A DNA stretch of 64,000 nt from Cellulomonas wangleii (lineage in GTDB: Bacteria; Actinomycetota; Actinomycetes; Actinomycetales; Cellulomonadaceae), in contig NZ_CP074405.1 in NCBI RefSeq assembly GCF_018388445.1, positions 2,046,001 through 2,110,000 of the forward strand, written 5' to 3'. Positions within the stretch are counted from its first letter, which is position 1, and each line of letters opens with the position of its first letter. Below, one piece after another: positions 38,952 through 46,912 of the stretch. Below the pieces are notes generated by a model. The model did not search any database, was not told where the DNA came from, and saw only the letters and a program-made list of their open reading frames with translations. A program made the translations under genes and the position numbers.

Positions 38952-41666
38952 TCAGCGGACGGCGGTGTTCCGCGGGTCGCTGCGCGCCTGCCCGCGCAGC
39001 AGGACGATGTCGGCCTCGCGCAGCACCTCGGTGACGTCCCGCATGCCGCGCACCGACCCGATGACCCCGATGGCGATGCGCGGGCCGATCTCCCGCCGCA
39101 GCCGCTCGAGCAGCTCGGTGAGCCGGTCCGGCATCCCGCCGGCGCCGACGTCGTCGACCAGGATCGCGAAGTCGTCCTCCCCCGTGCGTGCCGTCGTGTC
39201 GCCCTCCCGCAGGGGACGGCGCAGCTGACGCACCACCTCGCGGTGGACGTCCGGGGCGTGGTCCTCGTCGCGCTGGACCGCGCCGCCGTCCACGACGCGG
39301 ACGAACGCCACGGCACAGTCGTACGCGGCCGACCGCCGGCACCGCAGCAGCGCGGCCCCCAGCCGGTCGAGGAACAGCAGCCGGTTCACCAGGCCCGTCT
39401 CCGGGTCGTGCAGGGCGTCGCGCTGCAGGGCGATCTCGGCCTCCTTGCGCTCGGTCACGTCGACCAGCGTCCCGACGAGCCGCGACGGGCACCCCGCGTC
39501 GTCGAGGACGGTCACCGCGCGGCACATCATCCAGCGGTAGTCCCCCGACTGCGTCCGCACCCGGTGCTCGAGCTCCAGGGGCGTCCCGCACCCGGCGAGC
39601 TGCGCGGCGATCGCGGCGGACAGCTCGTCGCGGTCGGCGGGGTGCACGCGCTCGAGCCACTCCGACGGCTGGTCCCCGATGACGTCCTCGGCGTACCCGA
39701 GCGTCTGCTTCCACCGCGGCGAGTAGTACACCGCGCCCGCCGAGACGTCCCAGTCCCAGGTCCCGTCGTGCGCGGCCATGGACGCCAGCGCGTACCGCTC
39801 CTCGCTCTCGCGGACCGTGTCGGCCAGCGCCCGCTCGCGGGCGGCCGCCTGCTCCAGCGCCTTGCGCTGCTCGCGCAGCGATCCCAGCAGCCGCTCCTGG
39901 TCGAGGGCGACGGCGAGCAGCGCGGCCCAGTGGTTGAACCGGTCCCGCGGCTGCGTCGCCCGCGTCTCGACCGTCCCGTCGATCGCGAGCAGGCCCCAGT
40001 CGCTGCCGCCGAACGTGACCGGCACGACGAACGTCAGCTCGTTGGACCCCACGGTGCCCGCCCGCGTCAGCGCGGGGGGCGGGAACTGGCTCGCGGTGGT
40101 TCGCACCCCGACGAGCCGCGAGAGCGTCCCGCTGGTGTCGTGCACACCGACGATCTCCATCTCCCGGTCCCCGGGGCCGCGGTCCGTGCCGACCCACAGG
40201 CCCAGGCACGCGTGACCGCGCACCCCGCGCGGCAGCCACCCCAGCGCACGCGGGCTGGCGCCGTCGCCCCGCAGCAGGTCCATGTCGACCTCGTACTGGT
40301 CGACGATCGTGCGCTCGAGCTGACCGCTGCGGGCCAGCATCGCGCGGGTGCACCCCTTGGTCACCGCGAGCAGCACGTCGGTGACCGCGCGGCGCACCGC
40401 CGGCTCGTGCCCGGCGCGGGCCTCGTCGAGCGACTCGACGCGACGCCGCTCCACCGTGCGCAGCACCGCCACCATCTGCTCGAGCGCCTCGGGGTGCGGC
40501 TGCAGCGCCGCGGTGAGGTCCGACAGGCGACCGAGCGCGGCCGGCGCCGGTGAGACGCCACGCTCGGCGGCGACCTCGACGGGCTCCTCCACGGCACGCC
40601 ACCACGTCTCGCGGGCGTCGGGGCCGGTGCGCCGCGACACGGCCGAGCCGGCCGGGCCGGCGAACGCGGAGTCGGCCAGCCGGCGCAGCAGCTCGGACCC
40701 GGTGACGTCCCCGCCCTCCTGCCCGGGCGAGGTGACCTCGGTGCACCCGCAGGACTCACGCACCACCAGGGACGACGGCACCCGGTGCTCCCCCGGCACC
40801 ACGTCGTCGCCGCGCATGCGCGCCAGCAGCAGCCCGACGGCGTGCTCCCCGACGCGCCCGAAGTGCGCGTCCACGGTCGACAGCCGCGGGCTCACCCGCG
40901 CACCGGAGTCGGCGTGGTCGAACGCGACGACCGCCTGGTCACGCGGCAGCACGAGCCCGTGCGAGCGCAGCGCGCGCTGGAACCCGACGGCGTTGCGGTC
41001 GGTCGCGGCGATGACGGCGGTGGTGGGTGTCCCGGCCTGCAGCATCCGGGCGGCCGCGTCGACGCCGCCCTGCTCCTGGTTGTCCGACGCCTCGTACCAC
41101 CAGGAGTCGTCGGAGTCGATGCCGTGCTCGGCCAGCGTCGTCCGGTAGGCCGCGAAGCGCTCGCGCATGTCGCGCTGCCCCAGGTTCCCGAGGAACCCGA
41201 TGGCCGTGTGCCCGTGCCAGATCAGGTGCTCGACGGCCGCGCGGACGCCACCGACGTTGTCGGGCACGACCACCGGGTCGTCGGGGTGCGCAGGGTCCTC
41301 GCTGATGAGGACCACCGGGACGCCCCACTCGCGCACGGCCGCGAGCCGCTCCGGGCTCAGCGCCTTGCCGATGACGACGAGCCCGTCGACCGCACCCAGC
41401 GCCACCGGGGTGTCGAGCACCGACTCCTCGGGGTAGCGCTCGCGGTCGAGGCCCGCGGGGTAGGTCTGGACGGCCACCACGCGGTGCCCCACGCCCCGTG
41501 CAGCCCGGGCGACGCCGGCGATCAGTGCGCCGAAGTAGAACCCTCCGACGACCGGCGACAGGACTCCGATCGTCCGACGCACCGTGGCGGGAACCCCGCG
41601 TCGGACCGTCACCATCTGCCACACCTCGCCCACACCGTCGGAGTCGAGCTGATGCTTTTGACCCAC
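38952..41666 (-). CDS. LacI-type sensor domain, PAS and degenerate GGDEF protein
   Basis: 904-residue cytoplasmic protein with no membrane helix or HTH. Residues about 30-300 are a LacI/periplasmic-binding sensor domain (TIGVLSPVVGGFYFGALIAG, VVAFDHADSGARVSPRLSTV). A helical/GAF-like middle leads to a PAS domain near 640-760 (YYSPRWKQTLGYAEDVIGDQ, then GTLVDVTERKEAE). The C-terminal 150 residues follow a GGDEF domain, but the active-site motif is GEDDF and the metal-binding FLDLD segment is replaced by FVRVVDG, so cyclase activity is unlikely. GTG at 41666 gives the longest product; ATG at 41615 is the alternative. Its start lies 17 bases from that of the LacI gene, next to two cellulase genes, which suggests sugar sensing. 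Confidence 0.85.
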   Translation of the reverse strand: MGQKHQLDSDGVGEVWQMVTVRRGVPATVRRTIGVLSPVVGGFYFGALIAGVARAARGVGHRVVAVQTYPAGLDRERYPEESVLDTPVALGAVDGLVVIGKALSPERLAAVREWGVPVVLISEDPAHPDDPVVVPDNVGGVRAAVEHLIWHGHTAIGFLGNLGQRDMRERFAAYRTTLAEHGIDSDDSWWYEASDNQEQGGVDAAARMLQAGTPTTAVIAATDRNAVGFQRALRSHGLVLPRDQAVVAFDHADSGARVSPRLSTVDAHFGRVGEHAVGLLLARMRGDDVVPGEHRVPSSLVVRESCGCTEVTSPGQEGGDVTGSELLRRLADSAFAGPAGSAVSRRTGPDARETWWRAVEEPVEVAAERGVSPAPAALGRLSDLTAALQPHPEALEQMVAVLRTVERRRVESLDEARAGHEPAVRRAVTDVLLAVTKGCTRAMLARSGQLERTIVDQYEVDMDLLRGDGASPRALGWLPRGVRGHACLGLWVGTDRGPGDREMEIVGVHDTSGTLSRLVGVRTTASQFPPPALTRAGTVGSNELTFVVPVTFGGSDWGLLAIDGTVETRATQPRDRFNHWAALLAVALDQERLLGSLREQRKALEQAAARERALADTVRESEERYALASMAAHDGTWDWDVSAGAVYYSPRWKQTLGYAEDVIGDQPSEWLERVHPADRDELSAAIAAQLAGCGTPLELEHRVRTQSGDYRWMMCRAVTVLDDAGCPSRLVGTLVDVTERKEAEIALQRDALHDPETGLVNRLLFLDRLGAALLRCRRSAAYDCAVAFVRVVDGGAVQRDEDHAPDVHREVVRQLRRPLREGDTTARTGEDDFAILVDDVGAGGMPDRLTELLERLRREIGPRIAIGVIGSVRGMRDVTEVLREADIVLLRGQARSDPRNTAVR

Positions 41667-41686
41667 ATCGGGCGCAACACTAGGTG
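41658..41686. promoter_or_regulatory. Overlapping divergent promoters
   Basis: On the plus strand TTGACC (41658-41663), 17 bases, then TAGGTG (41681-41686) faces the LacI gene. On the minus strand TAGTGT (complement of 41678-41683) faces the sensor gene. The -10 boxes share three bases, so polymerase could not occupy both at once. Boxes are inferred from sequence only. Confidence 0.5.
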
Positions 41687-42784
41687 ATCGTGGTCACTCC
41701 TGCACATGACACCGGCAAAGATGCTGTCTCTCCGACGACCGGGGCACAGCCCGTTCTCGGCGGCCCTGGCGCCCGCCGACCGACGATCACCGACGTCGCC
41801 AAGGCCGCGGGGGTGTCCATCGCCGTCGTGTCGTACGCGCTGAACGGACGCCCCGGTGTCTCGGCCGCCACACGAGAACGGGTGCTGCGCGTCGCCGACG
41901 AGTTCGGCTGGCGCCCGAGCGCGGCCGCGCGGTCCATGCGCAGCGGGCCGCGGGCGGTCGGGCTCGTGGTCGACCGGGGCCTCACCGGCGCGGTGGGCTA
42001 CGGCGCGCACGTCCTGGAGTTCGTCGTCGCGCTGCAGGACGTCCTCGCCACGCGTGGGCTGGCCCTGGTCCTCCAGGTGGTCGACGACCTGCCGGCGGCG
42101 GTGGCGCTGTACGGCGAGTGGTGGGCCGAGCGCCGGTTCGACGTCATGGTCGTGACGGACGTGCGGACCGAGGACCCCCGGCTGGACGCGCTGCGCCGGC
42201 TGCGGATCCCCGCCGTGGTGGTCGGCGCGGGCGACGTCCCGGGCGAGGTGGCGAACGTCCGCGTCGAGGAGGAGCAGGCGGCCGAGCGGGTGGGTCGCTA
42301 CCTCATCGAGCTCGGCCACCGCCACGTCGGCGCCGTGACCGGCCCGGCGTCGTTGCACCGCACGCGCTCGCGGGTCGCGGGCCTCGAGCGCGCGCTGGAC
42401 GCGGGCGGCGGCGTGCTCACGCACGAGCCGACGGGCGGCTCCCCCGAGGAGGCGGCGGCCTCCTGCCGGCGCCTGCTGACCGGGGACCGGCCGCCGTCCG
42501 CGGTGGTCTTCGACACCGACCACATGGCGGTGGCGGCGCTCGACGTGGCGCGCCGCACGGGGCTGGCGGTGCCGTGGGACGTCTCGGTCGTCGCGCTGTC
42601 GGACTCCGCGCTGTGCCGGCTGGCGACGCCGTCGATCACGTCGCTGCCGTCCGTCCAGGCGGAGCTCGGCACGGCGGTCGGCGAGGCCGTCCTCACGGTC
42701 CTCGACGCCCAGGGTGCGCCGGTGCGCCTGATCGAGGTCGGCGGTCTGGCCGTGCGAGGCAGCACCGGGCCGCGGTCCCGCTGA
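41684..42784 (+). CDS. LacI-family transcription regulator
   Basis: 366 residues. The LacI HTH begins near residue 35 (ITDVAKAAGVSIAVVSYALN, GRPGVSAATRERVLRVADE) and is followed by a sugar-binding domain (VGLVVDRGLTGAVGYGAHVL, GHRHVGAVTGPASLHRTRSR). Ligand unknown; neighbours suggest a cellulose breakdown product such as cellobiose. The GTG at 41684 overlaps the predicted -10 box, so GTG at 41690 or a later start may be the true one. The GH6 cellulase gene follows 269 bases downstream on the same strand. Confidence 0.88.
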   Translation: MIVVTPAHDTGKDAVSPTTGAQPVLGGPGARRPTITDVAKAAGVSIAVVSYALNGRPGVSAATRERVLRVADEFGWRPSAAARSMRSGPRAVGLVVDRGLTGAVGYGAHVLEFVVALQDVLATRGLALVLQVVDDLPAAVALYGEWWAERRFDVMVVTDVRTEDPRLDALRRLRIPAVVVGAGDVPGEVANVRVEEEQAAERVGRYLIELGHRHVGAVTGPASLHRTRSRVAGLERALDAGGGVLTHEPTGGSPEEAAASCRRLLTGDRPPSAVVFDTDHMAVAALDVARRTGLAVPWDVSVVALSDSALCRLATPSITSLPSVQAELGTAVGEAVLTVLDAQGAPVRLIEVGGLAVRGSTGPRSR

Positions 42785-43053
42785 CCGCGCCGCCCGGTGT
42801 CGGGCCCGCCCGGTACCGGCGCCGCGGGATGTGCACGTTCACCTGGCGCCTGACCTGCGCTTACGCCCGTCTGCGAACCCGCCCAGCAAGGTCACGATCT
42901 GGTAACGGCGACTTCCCTAAACGATTTGCACCCCTACGACCCGTGCCGTCCGCGTGATGGATTCCCCACAGTCGTCGTGGACTGCGTCCGCGGCGGTTCG
43001 CACCCGTCGCCGCCGAGGGCCGGGTGCTCCCGACCACCCCCCGGAGGACCCGC
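42785..43053 (+). promoter_or_regulatory. Upstream region of the GH6 cellulase gene
   Basis: 269 bases without a gene. The patch CCTAAACGATTTGCACCCC (42917-42935) is much richer in A/T than its surroundings and is the likely promoter area, but no clear -35/-10 pair was found. GGAGG at 43043-43047 is a good ribosome site six bases before the GTG start. No copy of the CebR-type box lies here; one is found inside the gene. Confidence 0.4.
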
Positions 43054-44958
43054 GTGTCCACACACGGCAATCGAACGGAACGAGGGCGCTGGCGCGCCGT
43101 CGCGACCGTCGCGACGGCAACGGCGCTCGTCGCGGTGCCCCTGACGCTCAGCAGCACGATGGCGACCGCCGCCGAGGCCCACGTCGACAACCCCTACGCC
43201 GGCGCCAAGCAGTACGTGAACCCCACGTGGGCAGCGACGGTTGAGAGCGCTGCCACACGTGCCGGCGACCCGACGCTCGCGGCCCAGATGCGCACCGTCG
43301 CCAAGCAGCCGACCGCCGTCTGGATGGACCGCATCAGCGCCATCAACGGCAACGCCGACGGCAACGGCCTGAAGTTCCACCTCGACGAGGCCGTCAAGCA
43401 GAAGACCGGCAGCACTCCCCTGGTCTTCAACCTCGTCATCTACAACCTGCCCGGCCGTGACTGCTTCGCGCTGGCGTCGAACGGCGAGCTGCCGGCCAGC
43501 GACGCGGGGCTCGCGCGCTACAAGACCGAGTACATCGACCCCATCGTCGACCTGCTCTCGGACTCCAAGTACGCGGACATCCGGATCGCCGCGACGATCG
43601 AGCCCGACTCGCTGCCGAACCTCGTCACGAACATGTCCGAGGCCACCTGCCAGGCCTCGGCGCCGTACTACCGCGAGGGCGTCAAGTACGCGCTGGACGA
43701 GCTGAAGACGCTCGACAACGTCTACACGTACCTCGATGCCGCCCACTCGGGCTGGCTCGGCTGGGACTCGAACTCGGGCCCGACCGCCAAGCTCTTCGCC
43801 GAGGTCGCCAAGTCCACCAAGAAGGGCTTCGCGTCCATCGACGGCTTCGTGACGAACACGGCCAACAGCACGCCGCTGGCCGAGCCGTTCCTCCCGGACC
43901 CGACGCTGAACGTCGGCGGCAACCCGGTCCGCTCCTCGAAGTTCTACGAGTGGAACTCCGACTTCGGTGAGCACGCGTGGACGGCGCAGCTGCACCGTCT
44001 GCTCGTGGCCGAGGGCTTCCCGTCCTCGACCGGCATGCTCATCGACACGTCCCGCAACGGCTGGGGCGGCCCGGACCGTCCCACGAAGGTCTCGACGAGC
44101 ACGAACCTCGAGACGTACGTGAACGAGTCGCGCATCGACCGCCGCACCCACCGCGGCGCCTGGTGCAACCCGCTCGGTGCCGGCATCGGGGAGCTGCCCG
44201 TGGCCACGCCCTCCAGCGCACCGGCCGCCGCCCACCTCGACGCGTACGTCTGGATCAAGCCCCCGGGCGAGTCCGACGGTGCGTCGAAGGAGATCCCGAA
44301 CGACCAGGGCAAGAGCTTCGACCGCATGTGCGACCCGACCTACGTCGCGTCCAAGCTGGCGAACAACCTGACCGGCGCCACGCCGGACGCCCCGCTGGCC
44401 GGCCAGTGGTTCGAGGCCCAGTTCACGACACTCGTCAAGAACGCCTACCCGGTCATCCCGACGAGCGGCGCCACCCCCGGCCCGACCCCGTCGGTCACGC
44501 CCAGCCCGTCGGTCACCACGCCGCCGCCGCCGGTCACGCCCAGCCCGTCGGTCACCACGCCGCCGCCGCCGGTCACGCCCAGCCCGTCGGTCACCACGCC
44601 GCCGCCGCCGGTCACGCCGTCGCCGACCGCGAACCCGGCCGGCGCCTGCTCCGTGACCTACACGGCCAACAGTTGGAACAACGGCTTCACGGCCTCGGTG
44701 AAGGTCACCAACCGGTCCTCGTCCGCACTCAGCGGCTGGAACCTGAAGTTCACCTTCGCCAACGGCCAGCAGGTCCAGCAGGGCTGGAGCGCGACCTGGT
44801 CGCAGTCCGGCTCGACCGTGACGGCCACCAACGCGGCCTGGAACGGCACGCTGGCCGCCGGCGGCTCGGTGGACATCGGCTTCAACGGCTCGCACTCCGG
44901 CACGAACACCGCGCCGACCGCGTTCACGCTGAACGGCGCCACCTGCACGATCGGCTGA
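43054..44958 (+). CDS. Secreted GH6 cellobiohydrolase with CBM2
   Basis: 634 residues. A signal peptide ([21 protein letters not shown], cut near AEA) leads to a GH6 catalytic domain of about 420 residues: [13 protein letters not shown] holds the first conserved Asp and [10 protein letters not shown] the catalytic acid. The long domain is typical of exo-acting cellobiohydrolases; GH6 endoglucanases are about 290. Then comes a linker with three 13-residue repeats ([13 protein letters not shown]) and a CBM2 cellulose-binding domain ([15 protein letters not shown] to the end, with the aromatic residues WN, GWNLKF and GWSATW). GTG at 43054 follows GGAGG. Confidence 0.93.
43242..43255. promoter_or_regulatory. 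CebR/CelR-like box inside the GH6 gene
   Basis: TGAGAGCGCTGCCA matches 12 of 14 bases of the known LacI-type cellulase operator TGGGAGCGCTCCCA. It lies about 190 bases inside the coding region, at codons VESAA. A chance match of this quality somewhere in the window is possible, so its position beside a LacI gene is the main support. Confidence 0.4.
44497..44613 (+). repeat. 39-base tandem repeat (linker)
   Basis: Three exact copies of a 39-base unit starting ACGCCCAGCCCGTCGGTCAC at 44497, 44536 and 44575, encoding [13 protein letters not shown] in the GH6 linker. Confidence 0.95.
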
Positions 44959-44999
44959 CCGATCGGCTGACGAGCCGGGCGCGCACGCGCCCGACATGA

Positions 45000-45039
45000 C
45001 GAAGGGGCCCTCCCGGACCAGTCCGGGAGGGCCCCTTCG
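45000..45039 (+). terminator. Strong hairpin between GH6 and GH5 genes
   Basis: Perfect 18-base stem, CGAAGGGGCCCTCCCGGA (45000-45017) with its complement at 45022-45039, loop CCAG. It is the strongest hairpin seen in the window. Only 64 bases separate it from the GH5 start. Confidence 0.9.
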
Positions 45040-45103
45040 GCGGCGAGGGGCCACCGCCCCCGCACTCCCGCACCGCTCCCCTCGCGCACTCCCCAGGAGA
45101 ACC

Positions 45104-46912
45104 GTGTCCACCTCCCGCGTGCGCCGCCTGCGCACCGCGCTCGGCAGCCTCGTCGCCGCCGGCGCCCTCACCCTCCCGCTCGCCCTGTCCGCGGCACCGG
45201 CGCAGGCGGCACCGACCGCCGACTGGCTGCACGTGCAGGGCAACACGATCGTCGACGCCTCCGGCAAGGAGGTGTGGCTCACCGGCGTCAACTGGTTCGG
45301 GTTCAACGCCACCGAACGCGTCTTCCACGGACTGTGGTCGGCGAACATGCGGACCCTGACGCGCGACATCGCAGCCCGGGGCCTCAACGTCGTCCGTGTG
45401 CCCATCTCCACCCAGCTGCTGCTGGAGTGGAAGGCCGGCACCTTCACCAAGCCGAACGTCAACGAGTTCGCCAACCCGGAGCTCGCCGGCCTCAACAGCC
45501 TGCAGGTCTTCGAGAAGTGGCTCGACATGTGCGAGGAGTACGGCATCAAGGTCTTCCTCGACGTGCACAGCGCCGAGGCCGACAACTCCGGGCACGTCTA
45601 CCCCACGTGGTGGAAGGGCGACATCACCACCGAGAAGGTGTACGAGGGCTGGGAGTGGGCCGCGACCCGCTGGAACAACGACGACACGATCATCGGTGCG
45701 GACATCAAGAACGAGCCGCACGGCACCCAGGGCGACACCGAGCGCGCCAAGTGGGACGGCTCGACCGACAAGGACAACTTCAAGCACTTCGCCGAGACCG
45801 CGTCGCGCAAGGTGCTCGCGATCAACCCGAACTGGCTGGTCTTCGTCGAGGGGATCGAGATCTACCCCAAGCCCGGGGTGTCCTGGACCTCGAAGGGCCT
45901 GACGGACTACTACGGCACGTGGTGGGGCGGCAACCTGCGCGGCGTGCGCGACTTCCCCATCGACCTGGGCGCGAACCAGGACCAGCTCGTGTACTCCCCG
46001 CACGACTACGGACCGCTCGTGTACGAGCAGCCGTGGTTCACGGGCGACTTCGACCGTGCCAGCCTCGAGCGCGACGTGTGGGACCCCAACTGGCTGTACC
46101 TGCACAAGGAGGACATCGCGCCGCTGCTCATCGGCGAGTGGGGTGGCTTCATGGACGGCGGGAAGAACGAGAAGTGGATGCTCGCGCTGCGTGACCTCAT
46201 CGTGGACCGGCGCCTGAGCCACACCTTCTGGGTGCTGAACCCGAACTCCGGGGACACCGGGGGCCTGCTCGGGTACGACTGGGAGACCTGGGACGAGGAG
46301 AAGTACGCGCTGCTGGAGCCGGCGCTGTGGCAGCAGGACGGCAAGTTCGTCGGGCTCGACCACGACGTCCCGCTCGGCGGCGCCGGCAGCACGACCGGCA
46401 TCTCCCTGTCGCAGGCCACCGGGACCGGGTCGACGCCGGTGATCACGCCCACGTCCACGCCGACGGTCAGCCCCACGCCGACCCCGACGGTCAGCCCGAC
46501 GCCGACCCCGAGCGTCACGCCGACGCCGTCCGCGTCGGTCACCCCCGGTCCGTCGGCCACCCCCGGTCCGTCGGCCACCCCGACGACCCAGCCGACCGGG
46601 GCGTGCACGGTGACCTACAGCGCGAGCTCGTGGAGCACGGGCCTGTCGGGCGCCGTGCGGCTGACCAGCACCGGCAGCACCCTGTCGGGGTGGACGCTGA
46701 CCTTCACCGCCCCGGCGGGCGTGACCGTCACGCAGGGCTGGGGCGGCACCTGGTCGCAGTCGGGCACCACGGTCACGGTGACCAACGCCGCCTGGAACGG
46801 CGCGCTCGCAGCCGGTGGGACGGCGGAGATCGGCTTCAACGCCTCGCACGGCGGCACCCCCGGCACGCCGACGGGCTTCGCGCTGAACGGTGCCCGGTGC
46901 ACGGTCGGCTGA
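45104..46912 (+). CDS. Secreted GH5 endoglucanase with CBM2
   Basis: 602 residues. Signal peptide RTALGSLVAAGALTLPLALS, ending APAQA-AP. The GH5 catalytic domain runs to about residue 430; the acid/base Glu is in GADIKNEPHG and the nucleophile Glu in PLLIGEWGGF, with conserved HDYGP and NVVRVPI segments. A Thr/Pro/Ser linker (TPTPTVSPTPTPSV) joins a C-terminal CBM2 (ACTVTYSASSWSTGL to the end). It complements the exo-acting GH6 enzyme. GTG at 45104 follows AGGAGA. No promoter was seen between the hairpin and this start. Confidence 0.93.
   Translation: MSTSRVRRLRTALGSLVAAGALTLPLALSAAPAQAAPTADWLHVQGNTIVDASGKEVWLTGVNWFGFNATERVFHGLWSANMRTLTRDIAARGLNVVRVPISTQLLLEWKAGTFTKPNVNEFANPELAGLNSLQVFEKWLDMCEEYGIKVFLDVHSAEADNSGHVYPTWWKGDITTEKVYEGWEWAATRWNNDDTIIGADIKNEPHGTQGDTERAKWDGSTDKDNFKHFAETASRKVLAINPNWLVFVEGIEIYPKPGVSWTSKGLTDYYGTWWGGNLRGVRDFPIDLGANQDQLVYSPHDYGPLVYEQPWFTGDFDRASLERDVWDPNWLYLHKEDIAPLLIGEWGGFMDGGKNEKWMLALRDLIVDRRLSHTFWVLNPNSGDTGGLLGYDWETWDEEKYALLEPALWQQDGKFVGLDHDVPLGGAGSTTGISLSQATGTGSTPVITPTSTPTVSPTPTPTVSPTPTPSVTPTPSASVTPGPSATPGPSATPTTQPTGACTVTYSASSWSTGLSGAVRLTSTGSTLSGWTLTFTAPAGVTVTQGWGGTWSQSGTTVTVTNAAWNGALAAGGTAEIGFNASHGGTPGTPTGFALNGARCTVG

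Follow-up and report, generated by a model that had tools for sequence, protein, structure and literature searches.

Why does a protein with a LacI-type sugar-binding domain, a PAS domain and a degenerate GGDEF domain, and devoid of a helix-turn-helix (HTH) of its own, stand next to a genuine LacI gene and two cellulase genes? The locus lies in the window, i.e. the whole 64-kb stretch of DNA that was analysed, from a soil-dwelling species of Cellulomonas, a genus of classic cellulose degraders. The protein, referred to as the sensor, probably helps the cell to time its production of cellulose-degrading enzymes, and the simplest account of the observations is a LacI-type switch that is divided over two proteins. 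That the sensor is the sugar-sensing half of such a two-protein switch for the cellulase regulon is given a probability of about 0.5. The features on which this reading is based are collected in Table 1.

Table 1. Features of the sensor locus (window coordinates; residue numbers are those of the sensor protein).
Feature	Coordinates	Strand	Basis
HTH-less LacI-type sensor ORF, 904 aa	38952..41666	-	ORF list and Pfam
LacI/PBP-type sugar-binding domain (SBD), residues 30-306	40749..41579	-	Pfam, PDB matches
Helical segment without Pfam family, residues about 323-465	40272..40700	-	AlphaFold model
GAF-fold domain, residues about 448-592, with a long helix leading on to PAS	39891..40325	-	
PAS domain, residues about 620-742	39441..39809	-	Pfam
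Degenerate GGDEF domain, residues 746-894	38985..39431	-	Pfam
GEDDF replacing GG(D/E)EF, residues 829-833	39168..39182	-	
Divergent LacI-family regulator with conserved HTH and eroded ligand pocket	41684..42784	+	Pfam, alignment
Candidate operator CCTAAACGATTTG in the LacI-GH6 spacer	42916..42928	.	
GH6-CBM2, exo-type cellulase with C-terminal CBM2	43024..44958	+	
GH5-CBM2 cellulase, next gene	44996..46912	+	Pfam

The real start of the sensor is likelier to be the ATG at 41615 than position 41666, because this codon (methionine 18, giving a protein of 887 aa) has a GAGG-like ribosome site and is matched in those sequences of Cellulomonas and Kribbella that were inspected. The original prediction of a LacI-like ligand domain joined to PAS and a GGDEF-fold domain is confirmed by Pfam matches to Peripla_BP_3 (residues 145-306, 6e-31), PAS_3 (residues 646-733, 8e-18) and, weakly, GGDEF (residues 751-891, 2e-9). 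The sugar-binding domain is of the Peripla_BP_3 type, and LacI and CcpA structures in the PDB match it. The LacI HTH (PF00356) gave no Pfam match in the sensor, and there is no room for one, because the divergent LacI reading frame starts 18 bp upstream of the sensor frame; the sugar-binding domain begins at residue 30, and only nine further codons of open frame lie beyond. Residues 300-622 were modelled by AlphaFold with a mean pLDDT of 91 and include a GAF fold at residues 448-592, the mid segment being uncovered among the best 60 of 170 and of 227 matches of the PDB sequence searches. A membrane helix was neither expected nor found, the highest 19-residue Kyte-Doolittle mean (1.82) lying within the sugar-binding domain. 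The features of a diguanylate cyclase are missing from the sensor, as had also been predicted: the GG(D/E)EF loop reads GEDDF, and the metal- and substrate-binding strand (LDLDGFKLVNDSLGH in relatives) is swapped for a linker of variable length. Pfam detects no EAL domain in the window protein.

The loss of the cyclase can be placed by comparison with relatives, which at an E-value of 1e-60 or better were found by whole-genome scans in 59/121 genomes of the family, 18/248 of the order and 6/394 of the class. A protein search, in which the 8000 candidates sharing most words were scored, yielded 244 relatives, of which the best 120 were listed; a search of 396 genomes of the phylum with the relative P0095 listed mainly matches to its GGDEF-EAL half and was left unused. 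The sensor belongs to a family with the architecture SBD-GAF-PAS-GGDEF(-EAL), as is evident from a collinear SBD, mid segment and PAS domain and from a CGC motif directly after the SBD (C306, G307 and C308), which is invariant in a 68-sequence alignment. In a quick tree of 107 sensors, calculated from residues 30-600 only and leaving out L006 and L011, a branch with an SH-aLRT support of 100 separates 62 rows from the rest, and it is these 62 that have the LacI/GH6 neighbourhood. The GGDEF and D.D.FK strand motifs are each present in 44 of the 45 rows outside this clade and in none of the 62 rows within it, and an intact cyclase site is present in no clade row; outside the clade, the match extends into an EAL domain in 37/45 rows. 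Among the 61 clade rows in which the state of the cyclase was judged (L031 was left unscored), 46 retain a remnant of the dead GGDEF domain, whereas the other 15 stop after the PAS domain; the tree implies at least five transitions between these states. Short forms of 513-573 aa (C. soli, C. timonensis) are excluded from this count of domain losses, because the C. timonensis gene is split into two overlapping reading frames. The latter gene (L031, 9998-13392), with frames of 573 and 770 aa, carries either a frameshift or a sequencing error. As judged from the alignment and the tree, the cyclase output has decayed in the clade that adjoins LacI and the exo-type GH6; linkage and cyclase death map to the same branch, so that their association amounts to one event and cannot be treated as a sample in the statistical sense.

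Several relatives deserve separate mention. P0074 (887 aa, 46% identical, outside the tree) appears intermediate: it keeps NDTYGH, the NDxxGH part, with the metal Asp changed, and its box, shorter by one Gly, reads GDEF. Four genomes of the genus g91 (L190, L191, L193 and L197) have tandem arrays of two or three intact SBD-GAF-PAS-GGDEF-EAL genes, which suggests that the active branch has expanded there. In five genomes (G260, G275, G289, G320 and G301) an intact GGDEF-EAL relative (L203, L201, L204, L206 and L207) is present in addition to the dead-cyclase sensor.

It is very improbable that the sensor has kept a weak activity in c-di-GMP synthesis or breakdown. Such activity would befit its relatives, which are of the cyclase/phosphodiesterase type, and the partly preserved motifs of P0074, but it is contradicted by the complete absence of both cyclase motifs from the clade, compared with their near-universal presence in the other rows, and by the lack of an EAL domain in the window protein.

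The dead domain has nevertheless not been left to drift. Over 15 Cellulomonas pairs, the median dN/dS is 0.04 for the SBD, 0.063 for the mid segment, 0.014 for the PAS domain (the lowest of the sensor protein) and 0.067 for the dead GGDEF domain, and it amounts to 0.197 for the linker that replaces the active strand. Purifying selection thus continues to act on the dead GGDEF domain in Cellulomonas, and the idea of a neutral decaying tail is rejected for this genus on account of the low dN/dS. The very strong conservation of the PAS domain suggests a ligand or partner beyond the explanation proposed here. The selection on the dead domain also fits an alternative, in our view improbable, in which this domain is a c-di-GMP receptor with a retained I-site, and the protein integrates c-di-GMP with the sugar state. 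The window genome has other GGDEF genes, and the RxxD motif is kept in 28 of the 46 dead domains, including that of the window (REGD); it is, however, absent from 18/46, and the whole domain is absent from 15/61 rows. Because of these gaps, c-di-GMP binding is, on the motif evidence, probably not a conserved feature of the linked sensors, and the suggestion that the protein acts by binding c-di-GMP or GTP lacks support as far as a conserved function is concerned.

The association of the sensor with LacI and cellulase genes, by comparison, is conserved throughout the clade. The divergent neighbour is a true LacI protein, with both a HTH (PF00356, 1.3e-14) and a sugar-binding domain (PF13377, 3.6e-24), and the two cellulase genes are found where they had been predicted; a DEAD-box helicase gene lies downstream of the sensor. 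A C-terminal CBM2, as in the GH6 protein, is the arrangement of Cellulomonas-type exocellulases according to the excerpted text of PMC3377646. From 70 sensor-linked loci, five probable duplicates (L022, L091, L152, L155 and L159), one locus cut by a contig end (L171) and one broken locus (L180) were dropped. Besides the window, LacI is divergent and adjacent to the sensor in all 62 clade loci that hold upstream DNA (L011 has none), including three (L157, L170 and L182) whose reading frames run on upstream and in which the position was measured from the sugar-binding domain. In all 60 further loci that extend far enough (L006 and L160 stop short of GH6), the GH6 gene comes after LacI on its strand, at a distance of at most 1.5 kb in 59 loci and of 1.8 kb in C. 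bogoriensis (L027). Clade homologues adjoin carbohydrate genes wherever the DNA reaches. In the 45 non-clade rows, a few of which have little upstream DNA, a divergent LacI was flagged in none, and GH6 is nearby in only one, L086, a GGDEF-EAL relative whose GH6 gene lies 1.4 kb away in the same orientation. Two further GGDEF-EAL relatives stand near cellulose genes: L078 has a GH5-like gene about 4-5 kb off, and L087 has a CBM2 match just upstream. Judging by L086, L078 and L087, the link to cellulose may predate cyclase loss.

At the level of genomes, 59 genomes of the family have a match to the sensor, and in 41 of them it was classed as linked; of the remaining 18, 14 were read as loci, while G261, G270, G330 and G348 were judged unlinked from score and frame length. 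Exactly the 41 of 121 genomes judged to carry a linked sensor have an exo-type GH6, against none of the other 80. The GH6 matches in these carriers have E-values of 2.6e-94 or better, and the next GH6 follows at 1.9e-66. The sensor-LacI-GH6 trio is also present in two genomes of Kribbella, a member of the Propionibacteriales as opposed to the Micrococcales. In the sensor, LacI and GH6 trees the Kribbella rows group with the C. cellasea group, and so are nested in Cellulomonas; for the sensor and GH6 they are sister within this grouping, the placement of LacI inside the group not being settled. The flanking DEAD, CoA-binding and DUF881 genes were found at neither Kribbella locus. The congruent gene trees establish that the trio was transferred to Kribbella.

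A comparison of the two sugar-binding domains reveals a division of labour. Over the 62 clade loci, columns that are at least 95% conserved make up 33/54 of the LacI HTH and 30/277 of the LacI SBD, versus 88/277 of the sensor SBD, although the LacI SBD aligns less well, which may exaggerate its erosion. Sensor residues D136, N137, R170, D223 and D250 are invariant in 62/62 clade rows. The Asp of the [FY]D[DN] motif, which we take to be the equivalent of the sugar-contacting D274 of E. coli LacI, is present in all 62 sensors and in none of the 62 readable LacI partners. Among the other LacI-type proteins of the window genome (26 examined of 27 other Peripla_BP_3 matches), 25/26 have this FD[DN]-motif Asp. 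The LacI partner has kept its HTH and lost conserved residues of its sugar pocket, whereas the pocket of the sensor is invariant. Most Cellulomonas LacI partners do retain an Arg at the expected pocket site (RxxG region), and those that keep it could bind a ligand of their own, which counts against a switch divided over two proteins.

The main competitor is accordingly a LacI that acts alone: it would sense the inducer through a non-canonical pocket and run the regulon, while the sensor is kept alongside and acts elsewhere, e.g. by contact with active GGDEF/EAL enzymes or with a PAS partner. This is unlikely, though it deserves to be taken more seriously than the two c-di-GMP alternatives. The LacI SBD still matches PF13377, the window genome has five other GGDEF genes (102-175 bits), and the PAS domain is the most constrained domain of the sensor. 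A LacI acting alone does not, however, fit with the opposite fates of the two pockets at the same loci, with the exact coincidence of sensor and exo-GH6 (41/41 vs 0/80), or with the passage of the sensor to Kribbella together with LacI and GH6.

Returning to the divided switch, a candidate operator with the consensus CCTAAACGWTTYR is located in the LacI-GH6 spacers. The exact core AAWCGNTT occurs at a similar place in 54/61 of these spacers, against a background expectation of 0.04 per 300 bp, and the other seven have a one-mismatch form by eye. The core is found in 0/62 sensor-LacI spacers, so that neither the sensor gene nor LacI appears to be controlled by the operator from this spacer. Near-palindromes of 14-20 bases common to the sensor-LacI spacers of 15 of the 61 loci were not found either, by a scan so insensitive that it missed the real operator in the LacI-GH6 spacers. 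Just before the operator, many Cellulomonas spacers contain a second conserved element, GATnnGGTAACG (window 42896-42907), possibly a promoter element or a second site. In four genomes of one genus, g2, a further operator match lies within about 15-50 bp past the sensor stop codon (G008:C1:1339482, G186:C4:18418, G345:C1:1465047 and G332:C14:49297).

Across the 121 genomes, the pattern CYTAAWCGNTTNR was counted as matches on both strands, so that a fully palindromic site can count twice. It gives 185 matches in the 41 carriers (11 with the reversed pattern as a control) and 29 in the 80 non-carriers (control 25). Every carrier has at least one match, and 39 have two or more; the 40 non-carriers with some GH6 have a mean of 0.125 matches, compared with 3.5 beyond the first in carriers. 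Rank tests reach significance, with p-values of about 1e-17 and 2e-14, uncorrected for phylogeny. The operator exceeds background only in sensor-bearing genomes.

The genes next to these sites are mainly those of polysaccharide degradation. Nine of the 13 YTAAWCGNTT sites of the window genome (reversed-pattern control: 1) are found at GH9-CBM3, GH11 (two), GDSL-ricin, GH6 (two), GH10-CBM2, GH62 and GH9 genes; four matches fall at unrelated genes, being at or in a GNAT gene, an AAA-type ORF and an unscanned ORF, or in the gap between a HIT-family gene and an unmatched ORF. For three other genomes (G130, G264 and G320), 20 further sites were considered, being those listed minus each GH6-spacer site and G320 C9:244484. 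Seventeen of these stand at clear polysaccharide-degradation genes, i.e. GH5-CBM2 (five), GH6, GH48 (two), GH9-CBM3 (two), LPMO10, GH12, GDSL/CE2 esterase (three), pectate lyase and Cip1-CBM2, while one is at a BNR-repeat protein gene and two (L291 and L299) are at unrelated genes.

These observations can be combined into a mechanism. Operator conservation, gene context and genome co-occurrence suggest that the neighbouring LacI would bind CCTAAACGWTTYR before the GH6 gene, and likewise elsewhere before GH48, GH9, GH5, GH10, GH11 and LPMO genes. A cytoplasmic cello-oligosaccharide, probably cellobiose, would bind to the sensor, whose GAF-PAS part would then alter the grip of LacI on the DNA through direct physical contact. 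The ancestor of the sensor would have been an SBD-GAF-PAS-GGDEF(-EAL) protein with an intact cyclase motif, whose output decayed beside LacI and the exo-GH6. In its fullest form the proposal is a split LacI repressor: LacI gave up inducer sensing; the cellulose breakdown product is sensed instead by a second protein, which lacks an HTH, stems from a family of c-di-GMP enzymes, no longer has catalytic output and controls LacI; the pair supplies the master switch that had been missing for the cellulase regulon of Cellulomonas; and sensor, LacI and exo-GH6 pass together from one order to another. This fullest form is put forward tentatively, with odds slightly below even. What the analysis shows is the architecture, the dead cyclase, the clade-wide synteny, the congruent gene trees with the Kribbella transfer, the co-occurrence, the operator, and the eroded versus invariant pockets. 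The operator and co-occurrence tests, which are uncorrected for phylogeny, point to LacI and not directly to the sensor. The original idea of a cytoplasmic sugar sensor acting through protein contact has gained from the synteny, co-transfer, co-occurrence and operator data, the contact itself being what we infer. If the proposal is true, a second-messenger enzyme has lost its chemistry and joined a transcription switch, and a LacI repressor has handed sensing over to another protein.

Relatives of the sensor carry the database name 'substrate-binding domain-containing protein', and the architecture has already been recorded. In open-licence PMC text on LacI/GGDEF architecture, degenerate GGDEF proteins, Cellulomonas regulation and c-di-GMP, and HTH-less LacI proteins, no title or abstract start among those listed dealt with the sensor or with a regulator for the orphan motif described below; within this literature the module, the cyclase decay and the link to the regulon are new. 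Like the sensor, PopA and PelD have retained a dead GGDEF fold, and act by contact or as receptors; we know of no protein of this type that is fused to a LacI-type domain. The same-family SBD-GAF-PAS-GGDEF-EAL branches of actinobacteria (e.g. L081, L190-L208 and P0095) share the HTH-less LacI-type domain, the mid segment with the invariant CGC and, in many cases, the PAS domain, but differ in their GGDEF and EAL domains and in their neighbourhoods, as detailed above. The AmlR-AmlE-ACSP50_2473 locus of Actinoplanes similarly combines a LacI-type regulator, a glycoside hydrolase and a GGDEF-family protein; there, according to the excerpted text of PMC6828939, the GGDEF-EAL protein has an N-terminal membrane domain, belongs to the same operon and has a presumed role in c-di-GMP metabolism. 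Another actinobacterium, Thermobifida fusca, also has its cellulase genes under LacI-type control, through CelR, a repressor which is released by cellobiose (PMC3377646, in part). CelR, however, unites DNA binding and the cellobiose response in one protein, whereas here the canonical pocket resides in a separate protein and the operator is CCTAAACGWTTYR; the CelR site TGGGAGCGCTCCCA has no exact copy in the 64-kb window, and two sites with two mismatches are present at 554 and 43242, the latter inside the GH6 ORF. A further parallel is the orphan motif of Cellulomonas flavigena, CNAA(T/A)CGNTTANNNA / CNAA(T/A)CGNTTCNNNG, which stands before almost all of its cellulases and is unrelated to the CelR site, and for which the excerpted text of the 2012 comparison names no regulator (PMC3377646). 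The window operator matches the first form of this motif (on the minus strand), and both stand before cellulases. For this orphan motif, the LacI-sensor pair, its operator and its predicted regulon now constitute a concrete proposal.
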